A DNA stretch of 39,051 nucleotides from Moraxellaceae bacterium. GTDB lineage: Bacteria > Pseudomonadota > Gammaproteobacteria > Pseudomonadales > Moraxellaceae. The notes under the pieces are model-generated. The model saw nothing but the letters and a program-made list of their open reading frames with translations, made no database searches and was not told the DNA's origin. The translations under genes were made by a program, and so were the position numbers. Positions 3,204 through 14,858 of this stretch are shown here, one piece after another (position 1 is the first letter of the stretch; each line of letters opens with the position of its first letter). The stretch is taken from NCBI GenBank assembly GCA_947373945.1, contig CANBZV010000004.1:1-39051 (forward strand), given 5' to 3'.

Positions 3204-4034
3204 ATGTATCAAACATTAATTTCCGTAAAAGATGCCAAAAATATCTTAGGCGATGTCGTTTTTGTTGACTGTCGTCATCAGCTAGGAACCCCCTCTTTTG
3301 GGGCAGAGCAGTATCGTTTAGGGCATTTGCCTCGAGCACACTTTGCTCATATTGATCAAGATCTGTCATCGGCAATCATTCCTGGACGCACTGGGCGTCA
3401 TCCACTGCCAGAGCAAGAGTCATTAATATCCCTTTTTAGCGGGTTTGGTATTGGTAAAGAGACACAAGTAGTCGTTTATGATCAAGATATTGGTATGTTT
3501 GCTTCGCGGTTATGGTGGTTATTGCGGGCGATGGGGCATCTGCAAGTTGCGGTACTAGACGGAGGATACTCAGCATGGATTGCTTGTGGTGGTGAGATTG
3601 ATTACACAATTCCTGAACGCGTAGAGGCTAAGTTTGAAGGAGTTTGGCAGCCTCACAGCGTTGAAAGTCAAGCGGTGTTCGTTCAACTTGGAGTCTCTGA
3701 TCGAGTGCTGATTGATGCAAGACTTCCAGAGCGATTCAAGGGTATTGAAGAATCGATAGATCGTAAAGCAGGCCATATTCCGGGGGCCATCAATATGCCA
3801 TTTACGTTGAACTGTCAAAATGGTTACTGGCGCAGCAAAGAAGAACTGCGTGCGCGATTTGAGAAGTTTTCAGCCAGTGAAATGGTCAGCTATTGCGGGT
3901 CTGGTGTTACGGCTTGTCATAACATTCTTGCTTGTGTACATGCTGATTTGCCAGAGCCGTTGCTGTATGCAGGGTCGTGGAGCGAATGGATTACCGATGA
4001 TAGTCGGCCTATAGAGACAGTGTCATTCACTTGA
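3204..4034 (+). CDS. Sulfurtransferase (tandem rhodanese domains; 3-mercaptopyruvate sulfurtransferase/SseA type)
   Basis: Two rhodanese domains; GRTGRHPLP, VLDGGYSAW, catalytic loop YCGSGVTA. Confidence 0.9.
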   Translation: MYQTLISVKDAKNILGDVVFVDCRHQLGTPSFGAEQYRLGHLPRAHFAHIDQDLSSAIIPGRTGRHPLPEQESLISLFSGFGIGKETQVVVYDQDIGMFASRLWWLLRAMGHLQVAVLDGGYSAWIACGGEIDYTIPERVEAKFEGVWQPHSVESQAVFVQLGVSDRVLIDARLPERFKGIEESIDRKAGHIPGAINMPFTLNCQNGYWRSKEELRARFEKFSASEMVSYCGSGVTACHNILACVHADLPEPLLYAGSWSEWITDDSRPIETVSFT

Positions 4035-4048
4035 GCGTATTCGCCGTT

Positions 4049-4076
4049 GGACTAACGACTAGCTAATTGTTAGTCC
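4049..4076 (+). terminator. Hairpin downstream of sulfurtransferase gene (possible terminator)
   Basis: ggactaacga-N8-ttgttagtcc, about 10-bp stem with one G:T-type mismatch; no long U tract immediately after. Confidence 0.35.
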
Positions 4077-4194
4077 CGTCGCAGTTTTCTCAAATTTACC
4101 GAAATAAATCTCCTATAAATATTGCCGTGTGACTAAGACTGGCCTACGCTGATCCATGACCGTTAGGGATGATGTTGATACAGGGAGTTAGGTC

Positions 4195-4563
4195 ATGTGT
4201 TCACGCTATTCTATTTGCTATGCAGTTTGCATAGCTGTTGGGCTTTCAGTATGCACTGTAGCTGGCGCCAGAGATCGTTCCGGTGTTGAGATTTACAACG
4301 ATATTTGTTCCAGTTGCCATGAAAATGGCGATTTTGCTGCACCGAAATTAAATGATTTTGCCGCCTGGAAGCCACGTCTGGCCACAGGTAAAAGAGCTTT
4401 GTACCAAAGTGCTTTCAAAGGCTTGGGGGATAATATGCCTGCCCGCAATGAGTATGAAAGCCATCTCAGTGACCGTGAAATTTATGATGCGGTCAATTTC
4501 ATGGTGAAGAAGGCCGAGCAATACTCCAGTGATACCGATCTAGTAGCCTCAAGCCGTCATTAG
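4195..4563 (+). CDS. Small secreted c-type cytochrome (cytochrome c5-like)
   Basis: Signal peptide; CSSCH haem-binding motif (IYNDICSSCHENGDFAAPKL); distal Met region NMPARNEY. Confidence 0.88.
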   Translation: MCSRYSICYAVCIAVGLSVCTVAGARDRSGVEIYNDICSSCHENGDFAAPKLNDFAAWKPRLATGKRALYQSAFKGLGDNMPARNEYESHLSDREIYDAVNFMVKKAEQYSSDTDLVASSRH

Positions 4564-4577
4564 AGAATAAGAGCCTA

Positions 4578-4870
4578 TAAGGCATTGAAAACCAATAGAC
4601 CGTAGAGTAGGCCATTTTTCGGGGGCTAATAAACTGCTATTTATTTGAACTGTCAGAACGGTTGCCGGCGCAGTAAAGAAGAACTGCGTGTGCGATTTGA
4701 GAAGTTTTCAGCCAGTGAAATAATCTGCTATTGCGGGTCGAGTGTTACAGCTTTTCATAGCATAACATTCTTGCTTGTGTACATGCTGCTGATTTACCAG
4801 AGCCATTGTTGTAAGCAGGGTCGTGGAGCGAATGGATTACCGAGATAGTCGGCCTGTGGGGACCGAGGCA
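4578..4870 (+). pseudogene. Decayed partial duplicate of the 3' part of the sulfurtransferase gene
   Basis: Co-linear with about 3739..4025 (e.g. 'gaactgcgtgtgcgatttgagaagttttcagccagtgaaat' and 'gggtcgtggagcgaatggattaccga'), but with small indels (extra 'agcat', extra 'ctg', lost 't') and TAT->TAA (ttgtaagcaggg vs ctgtatgcaggg). No intact 5' portion. Confidence 0.9.
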
Positions 4871-4988
4871 TTATCACGTTGATAAAGATGGAAGATACAA
4901 TAAATTTTTGCATGGTTACATCTAAATAGAAATATAGATAAAATAACACTATGACGATGGATTTTAGCATCAATTAAACACACACCGG

Positions 4989-7307
4989 ATGAATGTAATG
5001 ACGTGTACGTCTTTCTTATGGATAGTAAGTCTTTCTGTATTATTAGCAGCATGTGGTGGCGGAGGCGGCGATACGGGGACAAATGGTATTTCTTCAAAAG
5101 CGTATGCGATAGGTGGTCAAGTCACGGAGCTGAATGCGACTGGATTAGTGTTGCAATTGAATGATAGCTCAGATCTAGCTGTTGAGGCATTTAACCCAAA
5201 TTTTGTCTTTACGAAGGTGCTAAATGAAGGTTCTGCATATAACGTGAGTGTTCGGACAAATCCAACAGGGCAAATCTGTAACGTGGAAAAAAACGCCACC
5301 GGTATAACGGGGGCTAGTAGCCTTTCTTCTGTCGTTGTGAAGTGTTTTACCCCTGAAGCATCTAATTACACCATAGGTGGAGCAGTAAGTGGTTTAACTG
5401 AGACAGGGCTAATCCTAAGCAATGGCAGTGAGCAAATTGTTGTTGCTCCAAATGCAACACAATTCCAATTTCCTACACCGTTGAAAAGTGGTGAGTCATA
5501 TGATGTCAATATTGAGGCTCAGCCAAGTAAACTTACGTGTGCAATCCTTAATAATAGTGGCTTGGTGAATAAAGGTACAATCACTACAGTGAGCATTAAC
5601 TGTATCCCTACGATGGTAAAAGCAGGCTTTAACCTGAATAAATCGACATTGGATTTTGTTGCCGAGCAGGGGGCTCCGCTAGCCGAGCAAATACTCATTG
5701 GAACTATTGCTGGGGTGACTGAGCCGATCAATGTCGTAATTGAGCATACTAATAATGCGATCAGAGATGCTTATTTTAGTCCAATTTCTGAAAATAGCGG
5801 CCAGTTGGTTGTGGTACCACAGTATAGCGCCAACAAAGTAGGCATCATTAAGGATAACATCACCGTAAAAGTGTGTTTTCAAACAGATGTCAAATGTATC
5901 GCGCCCATTATGGATACCCCAAAGATTATTCCCGTAGTCACGGAAATCCGGCCTCCGCACCCTGCGCCTAACTTAGTTCTTTCTAGTTATGGCGTTGCTT
6001 TGACATCAGTGCCTAATCATGAAAAGTTAACACATACCTTAAAAGTGACTCAATCGTTGGGACAGGACATTAACTGGTCTGCTAGTTCGAACCAGCCGTG
6101 GTTAAGTGTGACCTCTGCGGGTAAAAGTACTGATGCATTAATAATAAAAGCCAATACAACTGGTTTAACGGCTGGTCAGCATTATGCGGAGGTGATTGTT
6201 TCTACGAGTGATGCCGAGTTGACTTCGCAAAAAGTACGCGTAGGTTTTTACGTGAGTAGCGCAAAGGTGGCTCAAGGTTTTGAACCGGAAGTTGATGTGG
6301 AAGAAGTTAGTTTATATGTTGACCCCATACGTCCTTATATTTACAACATCGTCACTTATACCGTTGCTACCACTGAGGAAGGTTCAGTAGATAAACCTTT
6401 TGAGATTCTTGTTCATAATATTTATACGGGTAAACGTGTAGCGAAAATAAAAGTCCCGTCTGGACGCTATGGTTATGATATGGGATTGGCACTTTCTAGT
6501 GACGGCTCATATTTATATGCTACTGATACTATTGACCATGTTATTGATGTCTTTAGTCTTGATACATTAAAACGGGTTAACACCTTGGATTTTAGTACAT
6601 ATCAAAACTCAGCTGATAATCGAGGCACGAGAATAGTATATAGTCATGTGCAAGGCAGGCCTGTGATTATTCTTAACTCATTGAATCTTGAACATAATAA
6701 TCATTTCCGTAATTATTTTTTTGATGATAGCTCGGTATTTCTAAATCCATTTACCGGAGAGGTTCTTGGGCAGTTACTTTATCTCAACAGCGACTTATTA
6801 CCCGGAGGCAACCGTTTCCATGTTGTCAGCCCTGATGGCAATGTGCTTTATCATTCGGTTTATGGACTGTCAGGTTATTTACCCCCCGCCATACGGTTCG
6901 ATCTTAAGGTAAACTCCAAGGGTAATATTTATGGTGTGAGAACGGCTGATACTGGGGACTTGGATGGTGAATCGCCCTTTATTTTTGCAACCAATAATGA
7001 TGGCAGCAAAGCCTATTCGGATAGATTTGTAATCTTAGAAAATATTAATGGGATACTTAAACCAAAAACAATGACTCCTGCTTCAACAAATAGATATTTA
7101 TTGACGTCTAAATTTGACCCCAATGGAAATTTCCTATGCTCTGTTTTTGACGATAAAGGTTTCCCCGATTATATGGAAATTCTGGATGAAAGTTTTAAAT
7201 CGCTTCGTCGGATCGAATGGATTGAGGGTTTAGGAGGTATGCGTTCTGTCTATTTTTCCAGCGATGGACTAAGAGTATTTAATAGATCAAATTTACGTGA
7301 TTATTAA
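4989..7307 (+). CDS. Large surface/periplasmic lipoprotein with two N-terminal repeats, BACON-like domain and C-terminal beta-propeller-like region
   Basis: Lipobox LLAAC followed by GGGGGD; duplicated module starting YAIGGQV / YTIGGAV and ending VVVKC / VSINC; BACON-like INWSASSNQPWLSVTSAG; propeller-like DMGLALSSDGSYLYATDTIDHVIDVFSLDTLKR. Confidence 0.75.
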   Translation: MNVMTCTSFLWIVSLSVLLAACGGGGGDTGTNGISSKAYAIGGQVTELNATGLVLQLNDSSDLAVEAFNPNFVFTKVLNEGSAYNVSVRTNPTGQICNVEKNATGITGASSLSSVVVKCFTPEASNYTIGGAVSGLTETGLILSNGSEQIVVAPNATQFQFPTPLKSGESYDVNIEAQPSKLTCAILNNSGLVNKGTITTVSINCIPTMVKAGFNLNKSTLDFVAEQGAPLAEQILIGTIAGVTEPINVVIEHTNNAIRDAYFSPISENSGQLVVVPQYSANKVGIIKDNITVKVCFQTDVKCIAPIMDTPKIIPVVTEIRPPHPAPNLVLSSYGVALTSVPNHEKLTHTLKVTQSLGQDINWSASSNQPWLSVTSAGKSTDALIIKANTTGLTAGQHYAEVIVSTSDAELTSQKVRVGFYVSSAKVAQGFEPEVDVEEVSLYVDPIRPYIYNIVTYTVATTEEGSVDKPFEILVHNIYTGKRVAKIKVPSGRYGYDMGLALSSDGSYLYATDTIDHVIDVFSLDTLKRVNTLDFSTYQNSADNRGTRIVYSHVQGRPVIILNSLNLEHNNHFRNYFFDDSSVFLNPFTGEVLGQLLYLNSDLLPGGNRFHVVSPDGNVLYHSVYGLSGYLPPAIRFDLKVNSKGNIYGVRTADTGDLDGESPFIFATNNDGSKAYSDRFVILENINGILKPKTMTPASTNRYLLTSKFDPNGNFLCSVFDDKGFPDYMEILDESFKSLRRIEWIEGLGGMRSVYFSSDGLRVFNRSNLRDY

Positions 7308-13876: not shown

Positions 13877-14356
13877 TTAGCTTGCTTGGTAAACAGCTAA
13901 CGCGGCATCTTGCGCCATCACTTGTTGTAATGCCGCTAATACTTGACCGGCTGTTTGATTTTCTGGAGCGAAAATCTTGCCAAAGTTGACTTTAGCTGCT
14001 TGGAAGAATGTGCCTTTATCTTCGGCCTTGATGTTCATCAAATTAGCCAACACATCTAAAGACTCACCATGACCCACGGACATATCGCGAGCTAAACGCT
14101 CGGAGTTAGTACCCATAAACATACTTAAACGAGCGCGGGAGCTAATAACGCCATCAGCTTGGCAACCCAGCGTACCACTTGTAATACCAAAAGTCTGGTT
14201 GCCCGACGTGCCATTAGTTGTAGCAGCTAACACTTTAGGAACGATACCGGATTGGCCTGCCCAAACCATTGTACCCAAACCACAACCAACATCGTTATCA
14301 GCCATAGCAACTGAAGAGCCGGATACTAATAAAGCGATCGCAAGAATTTTTTTCAT
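13877..14356 (-). CDS. DUF3015 family periplasmic protein (copy 2)
   Basis: Signal peptide; GCGLGTMVW, TTNGTSGNQTFGITSGTLGC; paralogue of adjacent ORF. Confidence 0.85.
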   Translation of the reverse strand: MKKILAIALLVSGSSVAMADNDVGCGLGTMVWAGQSGIVPKVLAATTNGTSGNQTFGITSGTLGCQADGVISSRARLSMFMGTNSERLARDMSVGHGESLDVLANLMNIKAEDKGTFFQAAKVNFGKIFAPENQTAGQVLAALQQVMAQDAALAVYQAS

Positions 14357-14381
14357 TTTTCATTTTCCTTGAGTTGTTGTC

Positions 14382-14858
14382 TTAAACAGCAGTGTAAGTG
14401 GCTAGTACCGCATCTTTAGCCATTACTTGTTGCAGAGCAGCAAGTACTTGACCTGCCGTTTGGTTATCAGCAGCAAAGATTGTGCTGAAATTAGCTTGAG
14501 TTGTTTGGAAGAACAACGCTTTATCTTGCTCTTTAACACCCATTAAGTCAGCTAATACGTTCAAAGACTCACCATGACCTACAGACATATCACGGGCAAC
14601 GCGTTCTGAGTTAGTACCCATAAACATACTTAAACGAGCGCGGGAGCTAATAACACCGTCAGCTTGGCAACCTAGTGTTCCGGATGTAATACCAAACGTT
14701 TGATTCCAGTAGGTGCCATTTGTTGTTGCTGCCAACACTTTAGGCGCTACACCAGATTTACCTTCGAATAAAATAGTACCCAAACCACAGCCTACGTCTT
14801 GGTCAGCCATTGCTACCGTAGAGCCTGCGAGTAACACCAGTGCGATTAGTTTCTTCAT
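14382..14858 (-). CDS. DUF3015 family periplasmic protein (copy 1)
   Basis: Signal peptide; GCGLGTILFEGKSG, TTNGTYWNQTFGITSGTLGC; paralogue 25 bp upstream of copy 2. Confidence 0.85.
   Translation of the reverse strand: MKKLIALVLLAGSTVAMADQDVGCGLGTILFEGKSGVAPKVLAATTNGTYWNQTFGITSGTLGCQADGVISSRARLSMFMGTNSERVARDMSVGHGESLNVLADLMGVKEQDKALFFQTTQANFSTIFAADNQTAGQVLAALQQVMAKDAVLATYTAV

Follow-up and report, generated by a model that had tools for sequence, protein, structure and literature searches.

Directly behind a cytochrome c gene in this member of the Moraxellaceae lies a stretch that resembles the end of the sulfurtransferase gene on the cytochrome gene's other side. The arrangement raises two questions, namely whether this second copy is still of any use, and how an intact gene came to stand between a gene and a repeat of its own 3′ end. 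Both were addressed in the window, that is, the whole analysed stretch of 39,051 nucleotides, and in related genomes.

The parent gene (3204–4034, forward strand) is an intact open frame of 276 amino acids. It contains two PF00581 stretches (91.5 bits), which place its product in the two-domain rhodanese superfamily, and a Cys-containing active-site loop, CGSGVTAC. With the SseA-type 3-mercaptopyruvate sulfurtransferases it shares the two rhodanese domains and the CGSGVT loop, and its best PDB matches are 3-mercaptopyruvate sulfurtransferases. However, its score of 124.2 bits is below the cut-off of 250 bits of the NCBIfam equivalog model NF008557, and its assignment as an SseA equivalog failed.

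In the spacer that follows (4035–4194, forward strand), a strong hairpin is located at about 4048–4077, between the sulfurtransferase and cytochrome genes (fold z-score −3.7), without a clear T-run. The next gene (4195–4563, forward strand) encodes an intact monohaem cytochrome c of 122 amino acids, which bears a CSSCH haem motif and matches PF13442 (44 bits) and PF00034 (25 bits). Downstream of the fragment, a poorly conserved lipoprotein-like gene of 772 amino acids (4989–7307, forward strand) lies outside the repeat, together with a greB-like gene and an AlkA-like glycosylase gene.

The duplicated portion comprises the last ~294 nt of the sulfurtransferase gene (3741–4034), which pair in direct orientation with 4581–4883. 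In a gap-allowing local alignment, 253 of the 305 columns are identical, and identity reaches 87% over the 291 ungapped columns. The alignment score of 343 compares with at most 27 among 200 shuffles, and the identity is thus far beyond the background level. In a self-BLAST of the window, the same pair is the top match (83% over 295 nt, E 1.7e-81). The sequence-only reading had reported a partial sulfurtransferase duplicate after the cytochrome gene, carrying substitutions, small indels and a TAT to TAA stop. The duplicate is real, with coordinates that had been off by a few bases, and all three kinds of damage were recovered. In detail, the two copies differ by 38 substitutions (26 transitions and 12 transversions) and by seven indels (−1, −1, +5, +3, −1, +2 and +1). 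The stop is found at 4812–4814, where the T at 3968 of the parent corresponds to an A at 4814. The copy is frameshifted and lacks a start codon and the first 179 codons. Its +5 and +3 insertions copy adjacent bases (CATAG beside CATAA, and TGCTGC), and are of the slippage type, as in replication slippage.

Among 349 genomes of the family, a close full-length sulfurtransferase (at least 58% identity) besides that of the window was found only in G025 (70%), G232 (68%) and G001 (58%, same genus). These three served as outgroups in order to polarise the differences. On the fragment's own branch, there are 24 clear changes, which fall on codon positions 1, 2 and 3 as 9, 8 and 7 (p 0.88 vs. an even spread) and show no codon-position bias, whereas only six clear changes fall on the branch of the intact gene (p 0.001). 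The even spread and the concentration of changes on the fragment are an indication that it evolved without coding constraint. A third-position excess between the copies (18 of 38, p 0.05), which could have meant divergence while both were functional, was gone after the changes had been assigned to branches, with seven ambiguous third-position sites remaining.

The fragment is 86% identical to the window's gene and 75–77% identical to those of Alkanindiges, which indicates that it arose within the lineage of the window. It still holds a few bases that have since been altered in the intact gene, for instance in the codons of Pro184, common to nearly all relatives, and of Cys229, common to the nearest ones. 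Residue 229 (window 3888–3890), two residues ahead of the Cys of the active-site loop, is Ser in the intact gene and Cys in the three closest relatives and in the dead fragment.

Based on the evenly spread changes of its branch, the frameshifts and the stop, the stretch 4581–4883 (forward strand) is very probably (probability of about 0.88) a neutrally decaying, non-functional 3′ fragment of the neighboring sulfurtransferase gene, in agreement with the decaying pseudogene that had been proposed earlier. Local recombination in the Moraxellaceae lineage, after the split from Alkanindiges, would have left this 3′ fragment, which would have been without start codon and N-terminal domain from its birth and has decayed neutrally. 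The locus is an ordinary pseudogene fragment and the commonplace scar of a past recombination. Similarly to the truncated gene-fragment pseudogenes that partial local duplications leave in bacteria, it consists of a 5′-truncated copy close to the intact parent gene, and the copy shows frameshifts, a stop and neutral substitutions. Nothing essential distinguishes it from them, except that here a whole intact gene lies between parent and copy.

A fragment that has escaped deletion might instead serve as a short peptide gene (ORF 4645–4848), as a promoter for the downstream lipoprotein gene or as an RNA. There is a promoter-like site within it (4697–4724), where the fragment's substitutions turn AATGGT into AATAAT and create a promoter-like −10 hexamer, but sites of this kind occur in the region at chance number (6 vs. 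4.2 expected). An Rfam search returned two tRNAs only, both far from the fragment, and no match inside it. With the seven indels breaking its frames and the absence of codon-position bias on its branch, any such function is very improbable. An artefact of assembly is more improbable still. The draft genome is indeed fragmented (271 contigs, 74.7% complete), but both copies are placed inside one 39-kb contig, the misassembly of one sequence gives no such differences as the 38 sites and seven indels seen here, and these differences are neutral in pattern when compared with the outgroups. The locus matters mainly for annotation, in which 4581–4883 should be entered as a pseudogene fragment, without a gene call for the small ORF (4645–4848).

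The edges of the repeat bear on its origin. At the right edge, homology stops within about 7 nt of the sulfurtransferase stop codon. Anchored extension past the stop over the next 90 nt (4035–4124 vs. 4884–4973) scores zero, and the hairpin spacer is absent after the fragment. This coincidence of the edge with a stop codon is the one mildly instructive point of the locus. At the left edge, the fragment starts 7–20 nt after the cytochrome stop; it might reach out to about 4570, an extension that is not significant. A derivation of the cytochrome C-terminus from the sulfurtransferase gene is not supported, as the upstream extension beyond 4581 into the end of the cytochrome gene is no better than chance (74 of 300 shuffles were as good).

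Two origins had been offered by the sequence-only reading, that is, a tandem duplication followed by deletion, or an insertion of the cytochrome gene. A single additive insertion is inferred to be the most likely route, at slightly less than an even chance. The incoming DNA would have carried the 3′ end of a sulfurtransferase gene with the hairpin spacer and the cytochrome gene behind it. One side would have recombined within the resident sulfurtransferase gene, the other would have joined illegitimately to that gene, again in its interior, and the resident 3′ end, displaced downstream of the cytochrome gene, would then have died. More tentatively, the cytochrome gene may have entered by one such homology-assisted event, in which case the donor would have supplied the 3′-terminal third of the intact gene, and the dead fragment would be the displaced original end. 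When donor and resident share the gene but have different downstream neighbors, a right edge at the stop codon is expected. The sulfurtransferase gene has different neighbors in every relative examined, and these, together with the end of homology at the stop codon, mildly favor insertion over tandem duplication and deletion. The evidence for insertion is nevertheless weak. Any donor must have been nearly identical to the resident gene, since there are few clear synonymous changes on the intact-gene branch. The GC3 of the intact gene is 0.35 in its 5′ part and 0.42 in its 3′ part, a gap too small to be a sign of a mosaic.

Homology-facilitated illegitimate recombination has been documented in Acinetobacter baylyi, of the same family as the window (PMC6382021). 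Additive integration as in Acinetobacter would yield an intact gene, new DNA and a truncated 3′ copy, and the homology would break off at the point where the donor and resident neighborhoods diverge. The difference is that here the event is deduced from the DNA, with neither a donor nor a pre-insertion state observed. Integration of an element at the 3′ end of the gene by a site-specific recombinase is unlikely, given a repeat of ~300 nt and an insert devoid of integrase genes.

The observed order would also result from a tandem duplication of the sulfurtransferase 3′ part, spacer and cytochrome gene, if the second spacer and the second cytochrome gene were then deleted and the fragment decayed. 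The left edge of the fragment, so close to the cytochrome stop, would in that case mark the duplication junction. This concerns the route alone, and the fragment is dead either way. Tandem duplication does occur locally in the window, as the adjacent DUF3015 genes demonstrate, but here it needs a second event whose breakpoint happens to coincide with the stop codon of the fragment. Moreover, the second spacer is untraceable (4884–4973 vs. 4035–4124), and the self-BLAST of the window revealed no second cytochrome copy near the first, so that no tandem remnant is seen. This origin is considered plausible, at clearly less than an even chance, and what remains goes to other routes; all these weights are judgements and were not computed. 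If the cytochrome gene was indeed inserted, the locus would illustrate on a small scale how, in nature, a gene can be gained at another gene's 3′ end with the host gene kept intact. It would then bear the natural footprint that one-sided-homology integration leaves in the Moraxellaceae, some members of which are naturally transformable.

In the search of the relatives, neither the sulfurtransferase-cytochrome nor the sulfurtransferase-lipoprotein order was found. Alkanindiges illinoisensis, also of the Moraxellaceae, carries the same sulfurtransferase gene (record NZ_JHUX01000008.1). No close relative of the cytochrome protein was present among 392 genomes of the order. The comparison of the locus, which had been suggested earlier, revealed no ancestral state and no strain lacking 4050–4870 among the sampled relatives, and neither an empty site nor a donor arrangement was seen in the genomes searched. 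None of the sampled relatives shares the sulfurtransferase-cytochrome-lipoprotein order, and synteny thus gives no direction for the event. The whole locus had no match in a plasmid collection, and an exact 26-nt pattern did not occur in viral contigs.

The repeats had also been credited with the capacity to remove the cytochrome gene by recombination. This is physically possible, as there are identical blocks of 30, 29 and 28 nt, and the cytochrome gene could be lost with the intact gene fused to the damaged end. However, every such deletion would alter the C-terminus of the sulfurtransferase, a consequence absent from the earlier reading. The products would have 268, 291 and 255 amino acids instead of 276, with the last 12 to 50 residues altered, and no identical block would leave a clean sulfurtransferase gene. 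The direct repeats seem to have no present function.

Two further duplications or remnants were noticed. Within the window, the adjacent DUF3015 genes (13877–14858, reverse strand) encode 159 and 158 amino acids and share 75% of their nucleotides over 416 nt. The pair is an old tandem duplication in which both genes have kept open frames. In G035 (L062:8736–8925), which carries the genus label of Alkanindiges illinoisensis G025, only the last ~50–60 sulfurtransferase codons are left; they are in frame and come immediately after an EF-hand-like gene. One side of this region is syntenic with the G025 locus of the full-length gene, and the remnant is an independent leftover 3′ end, from which the 5′ part has been lost.
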